DNA from: a virus
Strand: one strand, 5' to 3'
DNA length: 64,000 nucleotides
Virus record (IMG/VR): IMGVR_UViG_3300007640_000036
Location: 1 to 64,000 of that record
Position 1 is the stretch's first letter. Every line of letters starts with the position of its first letter. A program made the translations under genes and the position numbers. Under the pieces are notes generated by a model that saw only the letters and a list, made by a program, of their open reading frames with translations, made no database searches and was not told the DNA's origin. Shown in pieces: positions 16,415-61,875 of this stretch.

Positions 16415-17059
16415 ATGAAGTTAATTACCGAAGAAATATCAAACGCAGAATATATCGTAGAAGAAAAAAATGGTAAAAGAAATTATTCCATTAAAGGTAT
16501 ATTCATGCAATCAGACGTTAAGAATAGGAATGGAAGAATCTATCCTAAAGAAATCTTACAAAAAGAAGTTGTAAGATACAATAGAGAGTTCATCAATAAA
16601 AGCAGAGCATTCGGCGAACTTGGTCATCCTGATGGCCCGACAGTAAATTTAGAAAGAGTTTCGCATATGATTAAGGCTTTGTATCCAGAAGGCGCAAATT
16701 TTATAGGTGAAGCACGAGTTTTAGATACCCCATATGGAAAAATAGTGAAAAGTTTAATTGACGAGGGTGCAAAATTAGGTGTTTCAAGTAGAGGAATGGG
16801 TACACTTGCAAATGTAGGTGGTGCCAATGTAGTTAAAGACGATTTTTACCTTGCGACCGCGGCTGATATAGTCGCAGACCCAAGTGCTCCAGACGCTTTC
16901 GTAGAAGGCATTATGGAAGGCAAAGAGTGGGTTTGGAATAATGGGATTTTGAAAGAGCAAGAAGTAAACGAATTAAAGTTACAAGTAGAAAGTAAAGAGA
17001 GAATGGCAAGAGCAGAAAAGAATGCTCAAGTATTCGAATCTTTTCTTAAAAAACTGTAA
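16415..17059 (+). CDS. gp21: Prohead core protease gp21
   Basis: A 214-residue serine protease (T4 gp21 is 212) of the herpesvirus-protease-like family. The catalytic His is H71 in GELGHPDG and the nucleophile lies in GVSSRG (S124/S125). DVKNRNGRIYPKEIL near residue 35 is another family hallmark. It is packed in the prohead core, then activated to cleave scaffold, capsid and internal proteins after (I/L)-x-E. Its presence matters for the proteins from 51 kb onward, whose N-termini fit this cleavage rule. It is followed by gp22 and gp23, as in T4. Confidence 0.95.
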   Translation: MKLITEEISNAEYIVEEKNGKRNYSIKGIFMQSDVKNRNGRIYPKEILQKEVVRYNREFINKSRAFGELGHPDGPTVNLERVSHMIKALYPEGANFIGEARVLDTPYGKIVKSLIDEGAKLGVSSRGMGTLANVGGANVVKDDFYLATAADIVADPSAPDAFVEGIMEGKEWVWNNGILKEQEVNELKLQVESKERMARAEKNAQVFESFLKKL

Positions 17060-18518: not shown

Positions 18519-19895
18519 ATGTTTTTATCTGAATCAATGCAAAACAAGTGGCAGCCCGTTTTAGACCATCCTGATCTTCCTGAGGTCAAAGATAGTTATA
18601 AAAGAGCCGTTACTTCAATGATATTAGAGAACCAAGAAAAGTCGCTTAAAGAAGACGCTGCTTTCTTATCAGAAGCTGCGCCAACTAACGCAACAGGTTC
18701 TTCAATACAAAACTGGAATCCTATTTTAATTAGCTTAGTAAGAAGAGCAATGCCTAACCTTATCGCATACGATATCGCTGGTGTTCAACCTATGTCAGGC
18801 CCAACTGGTCTGATCTTCGCAATGAGAAGCAGATATGCCTCTCAAAGTGGTGGTGAAGCTCTTTTTGACGAAGCTGATACAGACTTTAGTGGTAGAAATG
18901 CTGCTGGATCATCTGTAAATGCTAAAACAGGCCCAGCACAAACTGGTGAAAACCCAGCTGTTCTTAATGACTCAATCGGTACTTCTACTGGTTACACAAC
19001 TGGTACTGGTATGACTACTGACTATGCTGAAGCACTAGGTGATGCTTCCACTAACGCATTTGCTGAAATGGCATTCTCAATTGAGAAGTCAACGGTAACT
19101 GCGAAAAGCAGAGCATTAAAGGCTGAGTACACTATGGAATTAGCACAGGACCTTAAAGCAATTCACGGCTTAGACGCTGAAACTGAATTGTCTAACATAT
19201 TATCTGCTGAAATCTTAGCTGAGATCAACAGAGAAGTAGTTAGAACAGTTTATAGAACTGCTGAAGTAGGTGCTGCTGATAATGACAACTCACACGCTGC
19301 AATTAACACAACAACTGCTGGTATATTTGACCTTGACACAGACTCTAATGGTAGATGGTCTGTTGAAAGATTCAAAGGTCTTATGTTCCAACTAGAGAGA
19401 GATGCAAACACAATCGCTCAGAGAACCAGAAGAGGAAAAGGTAACATGATTATCTGTTCTTCAGATGTTGCCTCTGCATTACAAATGGCGGGTGTTTTGG
19501 ATTACACTCCTGCATTAAACAACAACTTAAACATTGACGATACTGGTAATACTTTTGCTGGTGTATTAAATGGTAAGTACAAAGTTTACATTGACCCATA
19601 TGCTGCTAACATGGCAAGCAATGCGTCACCTACTAAACAGTACTACGTTGTTGGTTACAAAGGAACTTCTCCATACGACGCTGGTTTATTCTATTGTCCG
19701 TATGTACCTCTACAAATGGTTAGAGCAGTAGGTCAGGATAACTTCCAACCGAAAATCGGTTTCAAAACTAGATACGGTATGGTTGCTAATCCATTTGCTG
19801 GTGCTTCTGCGTCAGGAAATATTACTGCTGACGGTGTTGGTGCAATCAACGCTAACAGATACTACAGACGTGTTCAAGTTACGAACATCATGTAA
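18519..19895 (+). CDS. gp23: Major capsid protein gp23
   Basis: A 458-residue major capsid protein with a HK97-type fold (T4 gp23 is 521). The N-terminal 52 residues are a delta-domain propeptide ending in FLSE, followed by AAPTN, which fits gp21 cleavage after E52. Conserved stretches include NWNPILISLVRRAMPNLIAYDI, GVQPMSGPTGLIFAMRSRY, AEYTMELAQDLKAIHGLDAE and RTRRGKGNMIICSSDVASAL, each read in segments. It ends with YRRVQVTNIM. A strong GGAGAG ribosome binding site precedes it and an intrinsic terminator follows, fitting very high late expression. Confidence 0.97.
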   Translation: MFLSESMQNKWQPVLDHPDLPEVKDSYKRAVTSMILENQEKSLKEDAAFLSEAAPTNATGSSIQNWNPILISLVRRAMPNLIAYDIAGVQPMSGPTGLIFAMRSRYASQSGGEALFDEADTDFSGRNAAGSSVNAKTGPAQTGENPAVLNDSIGTSTGYTTGTGMTTDYAEALGDASTNAFAEMAFSIEKSTVTAKSRALKAEYTMELAQDLKAIHGLDAETELSNILSAEILAEINREVVRTVYRTAEVGAADNDNSHAAINTTTAGIFDLDTDSNGRWSVERFKGLMFQLERDANTIAQRTRRGKGNMIICSSDVASALQMAGVLDYTPALNNNLNIDDTGNTFAGVLNGKYKVYIDPYAANMASNASPTKQYYVVGYKGTSPYDAGLFYCPYVPLQMVRAVGQDNFQPKIGFKTRYGMVANPFAGASASGNITADGVGAINANRYYRRVQVTNIM

Positions 19896-51005: not shown

Positions 51006-52229
51006 ATGTATAGTTTTAAACAATATCTTAATGAGGCAAAAAATACTCATTTAGAACATTTAGAAGACGAAATTATTAATAACGGTTACCAAGGTGGCCT
51101 TAACGCAGTAGAATTTCTTAAATCATTAAGAAATATGCTAGTAGGTTCATCACGTAGAAAATTAAACGTATCCGTTAAATGGGATGGTGCACCAGCAGTA
51201 TTCTGTGGTATCAATCCTGAAAACGGCAAATTCTTTGTTGGATCAAAATCAGTATTCAACGTAACTCCTAAAATCAATTACACACAAGCAGATATAAGAA
51301 GAAATCACTCTGGTGGTTTAGTAGATAAATTATCAATCTGTTTAAAAGAATTACCTAAACTTGGTATACGAGGTGTTGTACAAGGTGACTTGTTATTTAC
51401 ATCAGGAGATATTAAGTCGGTATCTATACGAGGTGAAGATGCTATCGCATTTACACCAAACACTATAACATATGCTGTTCCAGAAAATACTGACCTTGCT
51501 AAAAGAATTAAAAGAGCTAAGTTAGGCATTATCTTTCACACTACTTACAATGGCCGAAAGATGTCTAACCTAAAAGCAAGCTTTGGCGTCAATGTAAATC
51601 GTTTTACAAAGACGCCAGCAGTATTCTTTGATGACGCAAGTTACAAAGACTCATCTGGTGTTGCTACATTTACAACTGCTGAAAGTGATCAGTACGATAA
51701 TATGTTAAGAATGGCAATGGGATCAATTTCAAAAGGTAAAGTTATTTTAGATTTGTTAAAAAGACAAACAAATATGTTATCAGTTGGTGCAAGATTAAAG
51801 ATTTTCTTCAATACAAAAATAAGAGAAGGTCAAACTATTAGTAATGTAAAAGGATTACAATCAGATTTTAGAAAGTACTATGCTTCAGTTTTAGATGATG
51901 AGATGTCAAGTAAAAAAACAGAAGCTGCAAAAAGTAAATACAAAACAATAAGAGATGATGGTTTAAAATTTATTGATAGATATGATAATGAAATATATTT
52001 TGCAATTGCAAGTTATGTAACTTTACAAAAAGTTAAAAATTATCTTGTAAGTAAAATGAATCAAATTAAATCAATAGGAACTTTTTTACAAAAAGGTAAT
52101 GGATTTGAAGTAACAAATCCAGAAGGTTATGTTGCTGTAGATAGAATGGGCAACGCCGTTAAATTAGTAGATAGATTAGAGTTTAGTACAGCAAACTTTA
52201 CATTAGCAAAGAATTGGATTAAAGGATAA
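51006..52229 (+). CDS. Ligase-like nucleotidyltransferase candidate with capsid-targeting-like start
   Basis: A 407-residue protein. Residues 58-61 are KWDG (VSVKWDGAPAVFCG), matching the lysine motif I (KxDG) of DNA/RNA ligases and capping enzymes. VVQGDLLF (about 124-131) could be motif III, and EGYVAVDRMGNAVKLV (E373-G374, K386) fits motifs IV and V. The N-terminal ten residues (MYSFKQYLNE) end in L-N-E followed by A, fitting the capsid-targeting/gp21 cleavage pattern. A family of such unknowns is common in marine T4-like phages (I believe DUF6267). Ligase activity is inference. Confidence 0.65.
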   Translation: MYSFKQYLNEAKNTHLEHLEDEIINNGYQGGLNAVEFLKSLRNMLVGSSRRKLNVSVKWDGAPAVFCGINPENGKFFVGSKSVFNVTPKINYTQADIRRNHSGGLVDKLSICLKELPKLGIRGVVQGDLLFTSGDIKSVSIRGEDAIAFTPNTITYAVPENTDLAKRIKRAKLGIIFHTTYNGRKMSNLKASFGVNVNRFTKTPAVFFDDASYKDSSGVATFTTAESDQYDNMLRMAMGSISKGKVILDLLKRQTNMLSVGARLKIFFNTKIREGQTISNVKGLQSDFRKYYASVLDDEMSSKKTEAAKSKYKTIRDDGLKFIDRYDNEIYFAIASYVTLQKVKNYLVSKMNQIKSIGTFLQKGNGFEVTNPEGYVAVDRMGNAVKLVDRLEFSTANFTLAKNWIKG

Positions 52230-53584
52230 TGGCAAATTTTAGAAAAGACACACAAGAATTTGGACCTAGAGGCCACGATAAAACGGTCTTTGAAGTACCA
52301 ATGATAGCAACAAATGACGGTAATGTTGTAACACAAACAAATCCATTTCCTGTTACAATATCAAGTATCAGTCAATCAAGCTCAGCAGAAACTAATACAG
52401 ACGCTTTTGGTAGACAAAGAATATCATCACCACTAACACTATTTGATTCCTCACATAGATTTTCTGATAATGATTTATGGAATGAAGATATTACAGGTGA
52501 CGCTTCATCAACCTTTCAAATAAATGAGGGTCTAGTAGATTTAACAGTTGGCGATAATGCTAATGATGAAATTATTAGAGAAACAAAAAAAGTAATGACT
52601 TATCAACCTGGTAAATCATTGTTAATTTTAAATTCTTTTGTATTTAATGCTGCTAAAACTGGATTAAGACAAAGAATAGGATATTTTGGAACAGACAATG
52701 GTATCTATTTAGAACAAGATGGTACAGATGTTTATATAGTAGAAAGAAGTAAAGTATCAGGTTCAGTTGTAGAAAGTAAAATTGCTCAAGCAGATTGGAA
52801 TGTAGATAAATTAGATGGCACAGGTACAACAGGCTATACTTTAGATTTAACAAAAGCACAAATTCAATATATAGATTTAGAATGGTTAGGTATAGGAACC
52901 GTAAGAGTAGGTTTTGTTATTAATGGTAGATTTGTAGTTGCTCACGCTTTTCATCACGCAAATTTAGTAACAGGAACATATATTACTACAGCTTCTTTAC
53001 CTTTAAGAATAGAAATTAAACAACAGACAGAATTGGGTGACAGCACCACAGCAACACTAAAACAAGTTTGTTCTAGTGTTATGAGTGAAGGTGGTTATCA
53101 ATTAAGAGGTTTACAACAAGCAGTTGGTACAGTAATTACTTCTCCTTATGAATTAACTACTGCTGGTACTTTTTATCCTGTTGTTTCTATACGATTAAAG
53201 TCAACAAGATTAGACGCAGCTGCTATTCTTACTGCTTTATCTATTTTAGGAACAGGAAATGGTATTTTTTATAATTGGCAAGTCGCAGCTGGAGGAACAG
53301 TTACAACAAGTTGGACTTCAGCTGGCACTAATTCATCTGTTGAATATTCAATTTCAGGAACAGCTTATACACTAGGTACAGGTAGAATATTAGCTAGTGG
53401 TTTTATGGCTTCTAATAATCAATCTAGTGCAGCTACTAATATTCTTAAAGAAGCGTTATTTAAATTTCAATTAGAAAGAAATACATTTACGGGTGTAGCA
53501 GAACCTATAACTCTTTTAATGTCTAGTGGTACTGATACGCAAGATGTGTATGCTTCTATGGATTGGGAAGAAATTAGTAGATAA
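52229..53584 (+). CDS. Virion-type structural protein (unknown)
   Basis: A 451-residue protein with a beta-rich pattern (TVRVGFVINGRFVVAHAFHH, PLRIEIKQQTELGDSTTATL). The N-terminus includes FGRQRISSPLTLFDSSHRF. The style is that of large fibre- or capsid-surface proteins of marine phages. It starts one base within the preceding stop (TAATG) and ends the same way into the kinase gene, so it belongs to the operon of the capsid-targeted-type proteins although it lacks that leader. Exact structural role unknown. Confidence 0.6.
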   Translation: MANFRKDTQEFGPRGHDKTVFEVPMIATNDGNVVTQTNPFPVTISSISQSSSAETNTDAFGRQRISSPLTLFDSSHRFSDNDLWNEDITGDASSTFQINEGLVDLTVGDNANDEIIRETKKVMTYQPGKSLLILNSFVFNAAKTGLRQRIGYFGTDNGIYLEQDGTDVYIVERSKVSGSVVESKIAQADWNVDKLDGTGTTGYTLDLTKAQIQYIDLEWLGIGTVRVGFVINGRFVVAHAFHHANLVTGTYITTASLPLRIEIKQQTELGDSTTATLKQVCSSVMSEGGYQLRGLQQAVGTVITSPYELTTAGTFYPVVSIRLKSTRLDAAAILTALSILGTGNGIFYNWQVAAGGTVTTSWTSAGTNSSVEYSISGTAYTLGTGRILASGFMASNNQSSAATNILKEALFKFQLERNTFTGVAEPITLLMSSGTDTQDVYASMDWEEISR

Positions 53585-54171
53585 TGAAAAGTTTTAGAGA
53601 TTTTATATTTGAACAATTAGGTAGAATGAGAATTATTATGTTAGGTGGACCTGGTTCAGGTAAATCAACCTATACAGAATACTTAATTAAACACTTTGAT
53701 ATTACACATATCTATCCAGGCGGTATGTTAAGAAAAGAAATTGAAAAAGGTTCAGAAATAGGACAGATTGCAAAAGATATAGTATCAAAAGGTGAGTTTG
53801 TTCCTAATCAAATAGTATTAGATTTAATTAGTAAAAAAGTTGAAGAAAGTCCTAAAGGTTATGTACTTGATGGATGGCCAAGATATATGCAACAAGTTGA
53901 AGATATGGAAAAAGCAGAAATAGGTTATGACTATGCAGTATTTTTAGATGTAAGTACCGAAGAAGTAATGAGAAGATTACTTGCAAGAGGTAGAGCAGAT
54001 GATACGAAAGAGATTATAGGTAATAGAATAGAATTATATAAAAAAGAAACAGGTCCTGTAATAGAATATTTAAGAAAGAAACCAGGATTTTTAGAAATAA
54101 AAGCAGAGGGTGGTACACCTGAAGATACTGCTAACGAAATTATAAGAAGAATAGAAAATGAAAGTAAATAG
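53584..54171 (+). CDS. Adenylate kinase-like enzyme with N-terminal leader
   Basis: A 195-residue kinase. The P-loop is GGPGSGKS (residues 21-28), the AMP-binding part is GGMLRKEIEKG, the DGWPR motif is residues 96-100, and a LID-side RGRADDT follows. Bacterial adenylate kinases begin with MRIILLGAPG; here the equivalent MRIIMLGGPG starts at residue 15, so the first 14 residues are an extra leader. The leader reads MKSFRDFIFE followed by Q, fitting capsid targeting and gp21 (I-x-E) cleavage. Trimming would leave an almost standard adenylate kinase, perhaps active in the newly infected cell. Confidence 0.85.
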   Translation: MKSFRDFIFEQLGRMRIIMLGGPGSGKSTYTEYLIKHFDITHIYPGGMLRKEIEKGSEIGQIAKDIVSKGEFVPNQIVLDLISKKVEESPKGYVLDGWPRYMQQVEDMEKAEIGYDYAVFLDVSTEEVMRRLLARGRADDTKEIIGNRIELYKKETGPVIEYLRKKPGFLEIKAEGGTPEDTANEIIRRIENESK

Positions 54172-54847
54172 TTTTATACAACATTTAGCAGAGGGTGTTT
54201 ACGACCCAGGAATATTTAAAGCATTTTTTCTTGCTGGTGGTCCTGGTTCAGGTAAAACATTTGTTACTCAAAGTACATTTTCAGGTACAGGATTAAAAGT
54301 TGTAAATTCTGATACATCATTTGAAAGAAATTTAAAACAAGCAAACTTATCTTTAAGTATGCCAGATGAAGAAACATATTTTAGAAACATTTTACGAAAT
54401 GCAGCCAAAAGAACTGCTATCTCACAGTTAAATAAATATGTAGAAGGAAGACTTGGTTTAGTAGTTGATAGCACAGGAAGAGATTATGATATGATTGCCA
54501 GACAACACAGTATGCTAAAGCAAATGGGTTATGATTGTTATATGGTATTTGTAAATACAACGTTAGATGTAGCGTTAGCAAGAAACGCTAGACGTGAAAG
54601 AACTATTCCTGAATATATTACAAAGTCAAGTTGGGAAGGTGTGCAAAATAACATTGGTAAATTTCAAAGACTATTTGGTTTAAATAATTTTTTAGTTGTA
54701 GATAACAATAAGTCTGATTTAGAACTTGTTACACTCACAATGAATAGAGTTGGTAAAATGGTAAGAAGATTTATGAGAACACCTGTACAAAATTATATTG
54801 CAAAACAATGGATGAAAAAAGAATTAGAGGCACGTAAAAGAATATGA
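54158..54847 (+). CDS. P-loop kinase (zeta-toxin/AAA-like) with capsid-targeting-like start
   Basis: A 229-residue protein with P-loop GGPGSGKT (K33), and acidic/hydrophobic strands VVDSTGRDYDMIARQ and YDCYMVFVNTTLDVALARN, typical of zeta-toxin-like or polynucleotide-kinase-like phosphotransferases. The start MKVNSFIQHLAE followed by G fits the (I/L)-x-E cleavage rule. Target unknown: a nucleotide, RNA or protein. It overlaps both neighbours by 4 or more bases in the same operon. Confidence 0.7.
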   Translation: MKVNSFIQHLAEGVYDPGIFKAFFLAGGPGSGKTFVTQSTFSGTGLKVVNSDTSFERNLKQANLSLSMPDEETYFRNILRNAAKRTAISQLNKYVEGRLGLVVDSTGRDYDMIARQHSMLKQMGYDCYMVFVNTTLDVALARNARRERTIPEYITKSSWEGVQNNIGKFQRLFGLNNFLVVDNNKSDLELVTLTMNRVGKMVRRFMRTPVQNYIAKQWMKKELEARKRI

Positions 54848-57633
54848 GATTTAAAGATTTTTTAAAAGAGTCTATAATTGACATACCAAGACAAACGTAT
54901 GCAAAAGGTGTATTTGATAAAGCAGATACTCCTAATCCAGTATTAAAACCATCAGTAAAAAAATTAGTATTAGATGGTATAAAGACATTTGAGAAATTTG
55001 GTAAAGTAGTTAAGTATACCTTAATTGGTTCAATACTTACAAAACAATATAGAGCTGATGCAGACCTTGACATTAATATCTTATTTAATATACCTGGTTC
55101 AAAAGAAGAACAAGAAAAGGTACATGATGAGATTAGAGAATATCAAGGACAGATAAATGGTAAAAATATACCAGGCACACAGCATCCTATCAACTACTTT
55201 TCCATCATAGATCCTGTAACATTTAATAAGGCAAGGGACATGGCTGATGGTACTTTTGATATCGACTCTAACAAGTGGATCAAAAAACCAGAACCTGGCA
55301 CCTTTGAACCTGAAAAATACGTTACGGATTTTCAGAAGCGTGTTTCTGAAATAGATGTTGTTAAAGGTGAACTTATACGAGATATGATTGATTATGAGGA
55401 ACTAAAAGACTTAACAGGTAACGACATAAAAAACTTGTCAAGTTTAGTTTCTAAAAAGTTAGACGAAATTAAATCTTCTATTAACACTCTAATTGATATT
55501 GGTGACAAAACTATTGCAGACCGAAAGGATGCTTTTAGTACAGATATGTCACCAGACGAAATCAGAAAGTTTGGTGTAAAGAACCGACTTCCCAAAAATG
55601 TGATTTATAAAATGTTAGAAAAGTATCATTATCTCAAATTTTTCAAAAAGTTGAAAGAGATTATGGAAGACGGTAAAATATCACCAGACGAACTGAAATC
55701 ATTATCAAAAATAAAAGAGGCCAAGGGTAGATCAATTGCATTTACCTTTGGCCGATTTAATCCACCTACAATAGGACACGAAAAACTTATTAACAAAGTG
55801 GCACAACAAAGAACAGATGATTACAGAATTTATTTAAGTAAATCTGAAGACACATCTAAAAACCCATTGAATGCTAGAGTTAAGTTAGCAACAATGAAAC
55901 AAATGTTTCCTAGACATAGCAGAAACATACTACTTAATCCATCAAACATGATATTGGATATTGTAACTGATTTACATAAAAGAGGTTACTCAAACATAAC
56001 GATGGTTGCAGGTAGTGATAGAGTAAGAGAATTTGATACTATCTTAAAAAAATATAACGGCGTTAAGAGCCGTCATGGTCTATATGACTTTGATAGTATA
56101 TCTGTAGCTTCAGCAGGAGAAAGAGATCCTGACGCTGAAGGTGCTACGGGAATGAGTGCTAGTAAAATGAGAGCGGCTGCAAAATCAAAAGACTTTGCAA
56201 GTTTCAAAAAAGGACTGCCGTCTGGTTTTGCTAACTCAAAAAATGCACAAGACTTATTTAGAAATGTAAGAAAAGGAATGATGTTAGCGGCTTCGTTTGA
56301 CGCTGATAGTGCATTTAGATTTAAACCATTTATAACTGCCTCAACAAAAGAGGAGTTAGATAAAATGACATTAAGGGACAAATATATTTCAGAGCATTTA
56401 TATGATGTAGGAGATATAGTTGACGATATGGAGAATAATGTAACTGGTGTCATTGTAAGAAGAGGAACAAACTATGTTACCTTGGAAGACGAGGAGATGA
56501 GCCTACACAAATGTTGGTTATATAATATTATGGAAACTCCTGTCTATTCAATTAAGTTGGAGAAACGATCAATGAACTTAAAAGAGAAAAGAAAATTAGC
56601 GTATGATAAAGAAACAGATCAACCTAAAAAATACGTTGCAGGATTATCAGACAAAGAGAAAAAGGCACATGATAGACACCTAGAAAAACAAGGTAAAAAA
56701 TCAGATAGTGACAAGTCTGCTTATAAACAATCACCTGCTGACAAAGTAGCAAAAACAAAACCTAGTAAACATACAAAACGTTTCAAACAAATGTATGGAG
56801 AATTGAAGACAAAATCAGAAAAAGAACCTCAACATAGAGGTAATGAATTTAATACAGATGGTATACCAGAAGCCTATGAAATAGGACATGATTGGGCAAA
56901 ATATACATCTTCAATAACACCAGGCGAAAAACACTACAATCCTAAGTATCAAGGCGGTTCTTATAGTCCAAGTAAACATAGTGATAATTTAATTAATGTT
57001 AACGCAAGTAAGGATATAAGCATGACAGATAATAAAAAAGTTGAGCTAAAAGATATAGAAGAATGGGCAAGTAAAGAAGAAACTATTAATAAATATAAGG
57101 AAAGATATGGGGAAGAGTGGCAATCTAAAATTGAAGAAACATACAATAAAATGTTCAATAAAGTGATTGACACCAACACAAATATGCAAGAAGGAAGAAT
57201 GAAGGATATCGCAATAGACCTTAAATCTAAGGACGAAGGCGGATTAGATCCAGAGGAATTTCAAAGAAAGTACAACAAATCTAAAGCAGAAATGAGAAAA
57301 GATTTAGGTGCTACTGAAGGCTTTAAGTTAACGTTTAAAGACTTTATGAAAGAAGAAGCAGACGAGTGGGGAATTTTCCCATCACAAATTACAGAAGCAG
57401 AACATCAAGGTAAAAAAGTTACTTTGAACAAACCTGTTAGAGGTGGTTCTAAAAAGTTTTATGTTTACACAAAAGGACCTAACGACAACATAGTCAAAGT
57501 ATCATTTGGTGATCCTAATATGGAAATTAAAAGAGATAATCCTGCAAGAAGAAGAAGCTTCAGAGCAAGACATAACTGTGATAATCCAGGACCTAAATGG
57601 AAAGCAAGATATTGGAGTTGCAAAAAATGGTAA
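54844..57633 (+). CDS. Multidomain protein with two nucleotidyltransferase domains and putative cleavage sites
   Basis: A 929-residue protein. Residues 1-9 (MRFKDFLKE) form a capsid-targeting-like leader. Residues about 58-80 (LIGSILTKQYRADADLDINI) match the GS...DxD motif of Pol-beta-type nucleotidyltransferases. Residues 303-312 (GRFNPPTIGH) and 438-443 (SASKMR) match the HxGH and ISSTxxR-type motifs of NMN/cytidylyltransferases. A Lys-rich linker follows. A second leader-like TFKDFMKE lies at 830-837 and ITE at 849-851, before a basic Cys-containing module (RRSFRARHNCDNPGP, RYWSCKKW). gp21 could release the parts. Enzymatic substrates are unknown. Confidence 0.75.
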   Translation: MRFKDFLKESIIDIPRQTYAKGVFDKADTPNPVLKPSVKKLVLDGIKTFEKFGKVVKYTLIGSILTKQYRADADLDINILFNIPGSKEEQEKVHDEIREYQGQINGKNIPGTQHPINYFSIIDPVTFNKARDMADGTFDIDSNKWIKKPEPGTFEPEKYVTDFQKRVSEIDVVKGELIRDMIDYEELKDLTGNDIKNLSSLVSKKLDEIKSSINTLIDIGDKTIADRKDAFSTDMSPDEIRKFGVKNRLPKNVIYKMLEKYHYLKFFKKLKEIMEDGKISPDELKSLSKIKEAKGRSIAFTFGRFNPPTIGHEKLINKVAQQRTDDYRIYLSKSEDTSKNPLNARVKLATMKQMFPRHSRNILLNPSNMILDIVTDLHKRGYSNITMVAGSDRVREFDTILKKYNGVKSRHGLYDFDSISVASAGERDPDAEGATGMSASKMRAAAKSKDFASFKKGLPSGFANSKNAQDLFRNVRKGMMLAASFDADSAFRFKPFITASTKEELDKMTLRDKYISEHLYDVGDIVDDMENNVTGVIVRRGTNYVTLEDEEMSLHKCWLYNIMETPVYSIKLEKRSMNLKEKRKLAYDKETDQPKKYVAGLSDKEKKAHDRHLEKQGKKSDSDKSAYKQSPADKVAKTKPSKHTKRFKQMYGELKTKSEKEPQHRGNEFNTDGIPEAYEIGHDWAKYTSSITPGEKHYNPKYQGGSYSPSKHSDNLINVNASKDISMTDNKKVELKDIEEWASKEETINKYKERYGEEWQSKIEETYNKMFNKVIDTNTNMQEGRMKDIAIDLKSKDEGGLDPEEFQRKYNKSKAEMRKDLGATEGFKLTFKDFMKEEADEWGIFPSQITEAEHQGKKVTLNKPVRGGSKKFYVYTKGPNDNIVKVSFGDPNMEIKRDNPARRRSFRARHNCDNPGPKWKARYWSCKKW

Positions 57634-58580
57634 CAAGATATAGAAGTGGATGGGATTACGAATCTCTAAATGAGTTTACAACTGTTTACGTTGCTAGATG
57701 GAGAGGTAAAGACGGTAAAAGATATGCGTCACCTTTTAAAACAAAAGACTCTGCTGAAAAGAGAGCAAAAGAATTAAGAACACAAGGTAATTCTGAAGTA
57801 TCCGTTACACAAGATACGTTAAAGGGAAATATTAAGTGGGCAAAAGATAACGGACCTGATATAAAAGGAATGCAAAAAGAAGAAAAGTTTGAGTGTCCTA
57901 AATGTAAAGGTAAAGGTTGTGACCATTGTGGTGGCAAAGGTTATCATATGAAAGAAAATGTTGGTGATTTTTATCAAAGTAAAATGACACCTCAACAAAT
58001 TCAGAATATAAAGAAGACTTGGCAAGGTAAGAAAGCTTCAGACGTTACACCTGCTGTTAAGGCAATGATTAAACGATTAGATATACCTACACAGTTGGCA
58101 ATTAGACAGGCAAACATACCTCATATTTCAAAATTAGTAGAGGACGCTTCTAAAGACGCTGAGAATATGGCGAAATTGAGAACACGTCAAATGTCATTAC
58201 AAACTAAATTAAAAGATTTAGATCCAGGTGAACCTAAAGACAAAACACCTATGGCTATAACTAAAAATGATATAGAGACCATACAAATGAAAATGGATCA
58301 GTTAAGAAGTAAAATGAAAAAAGAACAAGTACACCCAGCAAAATCTCTTATTGAAGCGATTACTGCTGTAAAAAACAAAGCAGAAAAAACAGGTATGCCT
58401 TATTCTATCTTAAAGAAAGTTTACGATAGAGGTATGGCTGCATGGAAAGGTGGTCATAGACCAGGCACTACACCTCAACAATGGGCTATGGCAAGAGTTA
58501 ACAGTTTCGTAACTAAATCATCTGGTACTTGGGGTAAAGCAGATAAAGATTTAGCAGCGAAAGTAAGGAGCAAAAAGTAA
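57627..58580 (+). CDS. Zinc-ribbon protein with C-terminal DUF5824-like domain
   Basis: A 317-residue protein. Residues 90-101 hold four cysteines in the pattern C-x2-C-x4-C-x2-C (CPKCKGKGCDHCGGKGYH), like a DnaJ-type zinc finger. The C-terminal MPYSILKKVYDRGMAAWKGG followed by HRPGTTPQQWAMARVNSFVT is a domain I associate with marine phage proteins (DUF5824). I chose ATG 57627, with GGAG at about 57615, over an upstream in-frame ATG at 57597. A leader-like SLNE occurs at residues 13-16. Function unknown; a virion or head-linked role is suggested by its neighbours. Confidence 0.65.
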   Translation: MVTRYRSGWDYESLNEFTTVYVARWRGKDGKRYASPFKTKDSAEKRAKELRTQGNSEVSVTQDTLKGNIKWAKDNGPDIKGMQKEEKFECPKCKGKGCDHCGGKGYHMKENVGDFYQSKMTPQQIQNIKKTWQGKKASDVTPAVKAMIKRLDIPTQLAIRQANIPHISKLVEDASKDAENMAKLRTRQMSLQTKLKDLDPGEPKDKTPMAITKNDIETIQMKMDQLRSKMKKEQVHPAKSLIEAITAVKNKAEKTGMPYSILKKVYDRGMAAWKGGHRPGTTPQQWAMARVNSFVTKSSGTWGKADKDLAAKVRSKK

Positions 58581-61283: not shown

Positions 61284-61447
61284 AAGAAGATAGGGATAGC
61301 TTTATAGAGGATCTTGCTGACAATACACCAAATGAAGCTCAGTTTGATAAGTTAAAAGAAGCTGAAGTACATGACGCTGAAGAAGACCTGGTAGCAGGTA
61401 AAACTTATAAGAAATTAAAAGACGAAGTAAAACGAGGAGAAAAATGA
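61280..61447 (+). CDS. Small acidic hypothetical protein
   Basis: A 55-residue frame joined to both neighbours by ATGA overlaps (61280-61283 and 61444-61447), which supports it as a real gene although it is short. It is highly charged (DRDSFIEDLADNTPNEAQF, EVHDAEEDLVAGKTYKKLK) and probably helical. The residues before the last stop include GAGGAGA, the ribosome binding site of the next gene. Function unknown. Confidence 0.55.
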   Translation: MKEDRDSFIEDLADNTPNEAQFDKLKEAEVHDAEEDLVAGKTYKKLKDEVKRGEK

Positions 61448-61875
61448 AAACATTTAAACAACACATAAAAGAAGGCGGAACTATGGGCGTTGGAACACCT
61501 CATCAATCTTCAGTAGAAGATGGATCAATGGGTGCTCACAATATACATGAACCTGCAATCTTACAAAGAGTGAATGCTTTTGTTGGATCTATTGCTGATA
61601 AAGAGTATATACAGCCTGAGGCTGCTCTATCTCAATTAGAAACTAGATTAAGAACAATTGGTGTTCAGTTAAAAGACTCAATAACAATTAATGATAAAAA
61701 AGGTAACTTTGAAAGTGCTTTAGTATTTAATGGTGGTCGTTTTGGTAAAGATACCGACGGCTCTGACATAAATGATGATGGAATTAGTCATAAAGTTGGC
61801 AAAGAGTTAAAACTAAAAGGTAGATACGAAACACTAGAGAACGGCGCTGTTAAAGTTTATGCAGAGCTTGGCTAA
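61444..61875 (+). CDS. Hypothetical protein with capsid-targeting-like start
   Basis: A 143-residue protein. The start MKTFKQHIKE followed by G resembles the T4 leader MKTYQEFIAE in length and positions (MKT-aromatic, then I-x-E). The body has a helical part (EPAILQRVNAFVGSIADKEY) and beta strands with a GGRFGKDTDGSDINDDGIS acidic loop. No enzyme motif is seen. The gp21 rule would remove the first ten residues. Confidence 0.6.
   Translation: MKTFKQHIKEGGTMGVGTPHQSSVEDGSMGAHNIHEPAILQRVNAFVGSIADKEYIQPEAALSQLETRLRTIGVQLKDSITINDKKGNFESALVFNGGRFGKDTDGSDINDDGISHKVGKELKLKGRYETLENGAVKVYAELG

Follow-up and report, generated by a model that had tools for sequence, protein, structure and literature searches.

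A leader-tagged phage chain of two nucleotidyltransferase-like enzymes with head-protease-type sites at its joints

The window analysed here is a stretch of 64,000 nucleotides, positions 1 to 64,000 of the IMG/VR virus record IMGVR_UViG_3300007640_000036 (a 64,504-base virus contig). It belongs to a marine T4-like phage and encodes a chain of 929 residues, which carries a leader resembling those of the T4 internal proteins and sites of the type cut by gp21, the T4 prohead protease. A T4-type tag or cut site precedes each enzyme of the chain, which makes packing in the head, cutting there and delivery with the DNA probable. We favour the reading, which appears fairly probable, that the chain is a head-targeted precursor of several internal proteins, that it is cut by gp21 and that it arose from fused leader-tagged genes.

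The reading frame is intact, starts with ATG and spans positions 54844-57633 (+), as a first-pass annotation of the window had stated. On the opposite strand over the chain the only open reading frames (ORFs) of at least 80 aa are two, of 100 and 126 aa. The window also encodes T4-type portal, scaffold and major capsid proteins and a Peptidase_S77 prohead protease. The best named matches to the chain come from Methylophilales phage Melnitz, Pelagibacter phage HTVC008M and phage C48C1, all Kyanoviridae. The 165,693-base IMG/VR record G002 encodes a 100% identical protein and also contains the three stretches of the window that were looked up.

In the proposed mechanism the N-terminal leader would act as a T4 capsid targeting sequence (CTS) and carry the chain into the core of the prohead. 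During digestion of this core a gp21-type protease would cleave after Glu-9, Glu-292, Glu-851 and perhaps Glu-676. Three products are predicted: a Pol-beta-like nucleotidyltransferase (residues 10-292, 32.5 kDa), an NMNAT/cytidylyltransferase (from residue 293 to 676 or 851) and, at 9.1 kDa, the basic Cys module (852-929). All would remain with the DNA and pass into the host. The small basic module, with an isoelectric point (pI) of 10.4, would be suited to packed DNA, as T4 internal proteins are. Neighbouring leader-bearing genes would have fused, and the cut sites would have been kept through fusion. Packaging, cleavage and injection of the chain, and the roles of its enzymes in the host, are what we infer from the comparisons below.

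Layout of the chain

The chain opens with a leader, followed by the Pol-beta-like nucleotidyltransferase and the NMNAT/cytidylyltransferase domain; a charged linker then leads to a second leader and the basic Cys module (C module). In the following list arrows mark predicted cuts and pLDDT is the predicted local distance difference test score.

54844..54870, + strand: leader 1, residues 1-9, MRFKDFLKE, T4 CTS-like, with site LKE↓S (E9 kept in 19/19 aligned relatives)
54871..55719, + strand: Pol-beta-like nucleotidyltransferase module, residues 10-292 (sub-cut-off Pfam matches, Foldseek and VIA rows)
55711..55722, + strand: internal site IKE↓A, predicted cut between residues 292 and 293 (conservation; pLDDT<50 segment 277-294)
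55720..56343, + strand: NMNAT/cytidylyltransferase-like domain, residues about 293-500 (PF01467, phrog_395, Foldseek NadM)
56401..56541, + strand: small beta-rich domain, residues about 520-566 (predicted strands 525-564)
56623..56823, + strand: weak match to the N-terminal half of DUF5824, residues 594-660 (20.7 bits, cut-off 25)
56863..56874, + strand: candidate site IPE↓A, cut between residues 676 and 677 (conservation; pLDDT<50 segment 636-696)
57331..57354, + strand: internal leader TFKDFMKE, residues 830-837 (aligns with the starts of stand-alone C module genes)
57388..57399, + strand: site ITE↓A, cut between residues 851 and 852 (E↓[AGS] conserved in relatives)
57397..57630, + strand: C module, 78 aa, pI 10.4, 9.1 kDa (phrog_7595, composition, alignment)

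The elements named in the first-pass annotation were all found: the GS...DxD motif of Pol-beta type (GSILTKQYRADADLD, residues 62-76), GRFNPPTIGH (303-312), TFKDFMKE (830-837), ITE (849-851) and the basic Cys module at the C-terminal end. Two Pol-beta Pfam models score under their cut-offs (20.0 vs 26.9 and 19.6 vs 21 bits). The predicted model of this part has a mean pLDDT of 74, and its structural matches are weak (best Foldseek E 7.7e-3, best VIA Z 6.8); the top rows include spectinomycin adenylyltransferase, the MNT antitoxin and minimal nucleotidyltransferases, and unrelated MamM domains also match, reaching VIA Z 5.5. PADLOC had no hits for the chain as a whole; for the Pol-beta part it gave two weak rows.

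The second enzyme domain matches phrog_395 (1.8e-71) and NadM (Foldseek E 1.4e-5), and narrowly exceeds the Pfam cut-off for CTP_transf_like, PF01467 (22 vs 21 bits). The tetrapeptide TIGH at residues 309-312 fits TxGH, which we take to be the signature of the NMNAT/cytidylyltransferase-like family. As a NadR-type NMN adenylyltransferase proper (TIGR01526) the domain scored 20 bits, far below the NCBIfam equivalog cut-off of 341, and a search of PDB sequences with this part gave no real match. The beta-rich domain at about 520-566 could, as a guess, be KOW/SH3-like. Only the N-terminal half of DUF5824 is matched in the chain, under the cut-off; the other half is matched by the next ORF (67.5 bits). 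After the cytidylyltransferase domain pLDDT falls below 50 at residues 587-597, 619-624, 636-696, 702-732, 775-785 and 822-849. For the fold of the C module no convincing match came from a profile search of PDB sequences (best E 0.062), and the match of the module to DUF5754 is weak (25/38 members, best E 6.6e-4).

Protease-type sites at the joints

T4 gp21 cleaves after L/I-x-E (PMC9026906). A strict site was defined as this prohead-protease motif, [LI]xE, followed by A, G or S. The chain has four strict sites (after residues 9, 292, 676 and 851) compared with a mean of 1.5 in shuffled sequences. Module starts are marked by three of the four; in 12 of 20,000 shuffles both the cytidylyltransferase domain and the C module had a strict site shortly before them. 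Sites 9, 292 and 676 lie inside stretches with pLDDT<50, and site 851 lies two residues beyond one.

The first-pass annotation had predicted new N-termini at residues 10, 838 and 852; the first and the last are supported by the site analysis, and the list, in which the sites after 292 and 676 were absent, needs 293, and perhaps 677, added. The cut between residues 837 and 838 (FMKE↓E) was rejected: relatives read FAEE↓V, FAED↓V and FDEE↓F there, and the site is not conserved.

Conservation was assessed in 19 aligned relatives. All 19 keep E9, followed by S or A, and all 19 have E292-A293; among the 18 near-invariant Glu residues of the alignment, E9 and E292 alone always precede A, G or S. At site 676 all 16 relatives that have the position read E↓[AS]; P3 is I, L, M or V in 13 of these, and three rows are gapped. 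The leaders of the Pol-beta part differ in length (MKTFLE, MRFKDFLKE, MKSFKDFNKHINE), yet share the end point E↓[SA]. In longer relatives a PAP2-like domain stands in place of the leader, with KSFSE, KSLKE or ELLE at the joint before SIID; in the two tested the PAP2-like Pfam match scored 31.4 and 31.8 bits (cut-off 27.2). Two proteins with such an extra N-terminal PAP2-like phosphatase domain ahead of the Pol-beta domain are L088 (1134 aa) and L034 (993 aa).

Junction contexts were collected from 217 loci, taken from three named phages and three IMG/VR scans, each of about the best 80 of more; the distinct contexts are related sequences rather than independent events. The cytidylyltransferase junction reads E↓[AGS] in 37/37 distinct fused contexts (35 of them [LIVM]xE↓[AGS]), and each of the 11 different octamers found upstream of the cytidylyltransferase ends in E↓[AG]. 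The C module is preceded by [LIVM]xE↓[AGS] in all 31 distinct contexts that have over 100 residues upstream, in 42 of 43 stand-alone contexts and in both contexts left open by a contig end. A loose leader pattern precedes the module in 26 of the 31 long-upstream and 37 of the 43 stand-alone contexts.

The presence of a site was also compared with that of the protease, in 11 of the 25 phage records that have the module, one being taken per near-identical group. In the named records with Peptidase_S77 (Melnitz, HTVC008M, C48C1 and immuto) a site stands directly before the module in 4/4: MME↓S, LEE↓A, LTE↓A and LDE↓G, respectively. In those without Peptidase_S77 (Kolga, CRP-901, CRP-2, CRP-6, HTVC106P, HTVC112P and CRP-3) this was so in 0/7, an absence of Peptidase_S77 that leaves a head protease of another family possible. 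The modules of Kolga, CRP-901 and HTVC112P start with MAKYQGR, MATYKGK and MAKYKNK, with Ala at the P1′ position of the T4-like forms; those of CRP-2, CRP-6, HTVC106P and CRP-3 begin differently. An LEE↓D some way upstream of the CRP-6 module was not counted as a site. In this record, which lacks Peptidase_S77, the C module opens a 229-aa protein (CRP-6 gp55; L249, 835-1524).

The same sites bear on an explanation to which we give an appreciable but minor chance, namely that the chain is targeted to the head and cut at the N-terminal leader only, the enzymes staying joined when they act in the host, as in uncut polyvalent proteins. For T4 IPI-III removal of the N-terminal propeptide alone is described in PMC9026906, and some fused relatives have no site before the module. 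An uncut chain would not be expected to keep E↓A or E↓G before the cytidylyltransferase in every one of the distinct fused contexts despite differing surroundings, nor to have its sites in low-confidence linkers; gp21 is also known to cleave core proteins at more than one position and Alt at its two ends (PMC9026906).

Leaders and homologues in virions

The leader pattern was written as F/Y-x-x-F/Y-L/I-x-E. This one pattern fits MRFKDFLKE and T4 ipII and ipIII, and misses T4 ipI. T4 ipII and ipIII, which start with MKTYQEFIAE↓A, were the sole matches among the 22 T4 genes in the stretch compared (vs.7, which was cut, is left out of the count). T4 ipI opens with MKTFKEF and runs on to ITE↓A, the motif that also precedes the C module of the chain. 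Residues 4 and 7 of the T4 leader are important for targeting and residues 8 and 10 for processing (PMC9026906); the spacing of the pattern is the spacing of these four residues. In G002 the pattern occurs on 4 of 211 script-called genes, all at 51.0-61.9 kb of the window, and at 0 of 672 internal methionines.

Evidence that such proteins enter particles comes from the literature on homologues. Two peptides of the cytidylyltransferase of cyanophage S-SZBM1 (gene 140) were reported from the virion proteome (PMC9146016), and three virion peptides of gp154 of cyanophage S-CREM2 (PMC10665884). The first of these proteins starts with MRFRQFIIE↓A, the second, also a cytidylyltransferase, with MKNFSSFLTE↓A. 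The virion proteome of S-SCSM1 also contains an NMNAT, which may adjust NAD levels according to its authors (PMC9602691). The authors of the S-SCSM1 (PMC9602691) and S-CREM2 (PMC10665884) studies regard these as carried enzymes and allow other reasons for their presence; in the text seen of either report no targeting signal is named.

In S-CREM2 the strict leader pattern, which was fixed after the leaders of this phage had been seen, occurs on 6 of 219 coding sequences, and 5 of the 6 are virion proteins (Fisher p 0.0032; 2.4e-4 without structural proteins). Besides two unknowns, the five comprise the cytidylyltransferase, a SAM hydrolase and an APH-like kinase; the remaining match is an ORF of 55 residues. 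In a Cas9-like virion protein of S-CREM2 the pattern is at residue 19. S-CREM2 gp6, gp12 and gp14 (the SAM hydrolase, the Cas9-like protein and the APH-like kinase; L243) may be injected proteins of early takeover or counter-defence.

These data also bear on an explanation that we consider improbable: the chain would be a multi-domain enzyme of the infected cell, E↓A a set of conserved linker or domain-edge residues, and the virion homologues a carry-over of abundant enzymes. Carry-over is allowed by the S-SCSM1 authors (PMC9602691) and the counts of cytidylyltransferase peptides are low (2 in S-SZBM1, 3 in S-CREM2). An enzyme confined to the infected cell would not account for a leader pattern that is that of T4 ipII and ipIII, for its restriction to one 11-kb cluster (4/211 genes, 0/672 internal methionines), or for module homologues that have neither leader nor site in records without Peptidase_S77.

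Apart from the relatedness of the contexts and the late fixing of the strict S-CREM2 pattern, several findings weigh against a head-targeted, gp21-cut precursor. Most sequence tests of the gp21 cutting proposed in the first-pass annotation agree with it; processed peptides have been seen for none of these proteins, the chain included. A looser pattern written earlier gives 5/9 virion proteins in S-CREM2 (p=0.037), and in S-SZBM1 alone a link between leader and virion is unsupported, at 1/3 (p=0.36) or 1/4 (p=0.45), in a count that covered 206/218 genes and 28/30 virion proteins (gene 78 and genes 208-218 left out). Two of the 37 cytidylyltransferase junctions have Q or T at P3. L157 reads IKN↓V before a degenerate module and has lost the 851 site, while L145, L146 and L151 have a different linker without a site directly before the module. 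Where the cytidylyltransferase is N-terminal (18 contexts), [LIVM]xE↓[AGS] was found in only one, Melnitz (E↓A); the remaining contexts have E↓E or E↓D (10), E↓K (1) or no site (6, including HTVC008M). Among 43 distinct N-termini of DUF6267 proteins (55 ORFs from 81 loci scanned, after ORFs open at a contig end or lacking the core motif were dropped), hydrophobic-x-E occurs near the boundary in 26, 14 have none and 3 are leaderless; in the 26, A, G or S follows in only 10 and D in 12.

Origin of the chain, known systems and neighbouring genes

Fusion of an ancestral leader-tagged gene, as the first-pass annotation had suggested, is strongly supported by sequence comparison. The relatives with a split module for which it had called were found: the module is a separate gene with a leader at its start in many relatives, C48C1 included. 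The C48C1 gene starts with MKKFKQYIDE and reaches LTE↓AEYQGKK, and those of many IMG/VR relatives start with MKTFKEF or similar. In 14 of 34 listed gene pairs, some of which share one contig, the module gene starts at the last base of the cytidylyltransferase stop codon (e.g. L032, L059 and L160). In HTVC008M cytidylyltransferase and module are adjacent genes, and in Melnitz they form one chain, a fusion of 650 aa, without the Pol-beta part. Because split and fused relatives both exist, fusion or fission at the module joint must have occurred. The internal TFKDFMKE has the form that a leader takes after fusion. Continued separate production of the C module from a start codon inside the chain, with fusion incidental, is very improbable: an ATG with upstream gaagg is kept in the fused L108, L010, L117 and L118, but the codon preceding TFKDF is TTA in the window and that at the internal leader of other relatives is CTA, TTG, GTA or AAA, so that ATG is not general at this place.

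In four relatives without a C module (L131, L135, L158 and L009) the C-terminus ends in K[ST]FKEF, as though the leader had been kept as a C-terminal tag. Leaderless forms exist: the DUF6267 protein of S-SZBM1 starts with MAKNTHLEHLED where that of the window reads LNE↓AKNTHLEHLED, and L031 starts with MAKTISFTFGRF. The leaderless DUF6267 proteins L242 gene 141, L323, L330 and L331 start at the would-be cut point of the leader-bearing forms.

The chain resembles T4 IPI, IPII and IPIII, which have a CTS and are processed by gp21, in its F/Y-x-x-F/Y-L/I-x-E leader and L/I-x-E cut motif, and its basic module would be of similar size when mature (78 aa, compared with 76 aa for mature T4 IPI). Unlike these proteins it has several enzymes and modules, internal sites and a second leader. 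Polyvalent proteins (PMC5512222) have several effector-type domains, Pol-beta nucleotidyltransferases among them, in one phage polypeptide, and the chain likewise joins several effector-like domains. Peptidase processing and an analogy to polyproteins have been proposed for that class (PMC5512222), in which an embedded peptidase is a frequent theme and not part of the definition. By contrast, no peptidase was found among the Pfam matches of the chain at E up to 1, and the proposed cutter is the separate head protease. The virion NMNAT/cytidylyltransferases of S-SZBM1 and S-CREM2 have a homologous domain and a leader, as in the chain, but are single-enzyme proteins. In the text seen of the S-SZBM1, S-CREM2 and S-SCSM1 reports neither a leader nor a protease site is named. 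Head proteins of SPN3US (PMC5694885) are packed and cut by the prohead protease after Glu, some of them multiply, as proposed here; in SPN3US propeptides are removed, whereas in the chain joined enzymes would be separated.

That the targeting sequence may let T4 relatives package varied proteins has been suggested in general terms (PMC9026906). Our searches of open papers returned PMC9026906, PMC5512222 and PMC3012670, and no such chain is described in the parts seen of them. The component ideas are already in print; new is their combination in a leader-tagged chain of enzymes whose joints carry head-protease sites. Proteomic reports place NMNAT-like and kinase-like enzymes in cyanophage particles and, in the text seen, give no route of entry. 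A T4-style leader would explain it; marine T4-like phage proteins with this leader should then be in the head. If the reading is right, a tailed phage would be using a polyprotein strategy, with a head protease that separates the enzymes of one chain; its possible course of evolution is shown by relatives with split, fused and leaderless forms. Tentatively, and with some doubt, we extend this to marine T4-like phages in general: they would use the head-maturation protease as a polyprotein protease, with leader-tagged host-takeover enzymes fused, co-packaged in fixed ratio and separated in the head before injection, and the leader would serve as a general address label, so that injected enzymes could be recognised from sequence (kinases, SAM hydrolase, Cas9-like protein, NMNAT-like and Pol-beta-like enzymes).

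The genes of the same phage that bear on the chain are the following.

16415..17059, + strand: gp21-type prohead protease (Peptidase_S77, 120.9 bits, cut-off 27)
18519..19895, + strand: major capsid protein gp23 (Gp23, 492 bits), with LSE↓A after residue 52, a likely maturation site
51006..52229, + strand: DUF6267 protein with leader MYSFKQYLNE↓A (leader pattern, Pfam)
53584..54171, + strand: adenylate kinase with leader MKSFRDFIFE and no strict site (leader pattern, Pfam)
54158..54847, + strand: zeta-toxin/AAA_33-like kinase with the leader-like start MKVNSFIQHLAE↓G, outside the leader pattern (Pfam)
57597..58580, + strand: next ORF, C-terminal part of DUF5824, with LIE↓A after residue 253 (the Pfam match begins at 253)
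61444..61875, + strand: protein with leader MKTFKQHIKE↓G (leader pattern)

The adenylate kinase and the zeta-toxin-like kinase (53584-54847), both with leader-like starts, are directly upstream of the chain in the same gene run. DUF5824 appears divided between the chain and the next ORF, and by eye HTVC008M gp130 holds both stretches.

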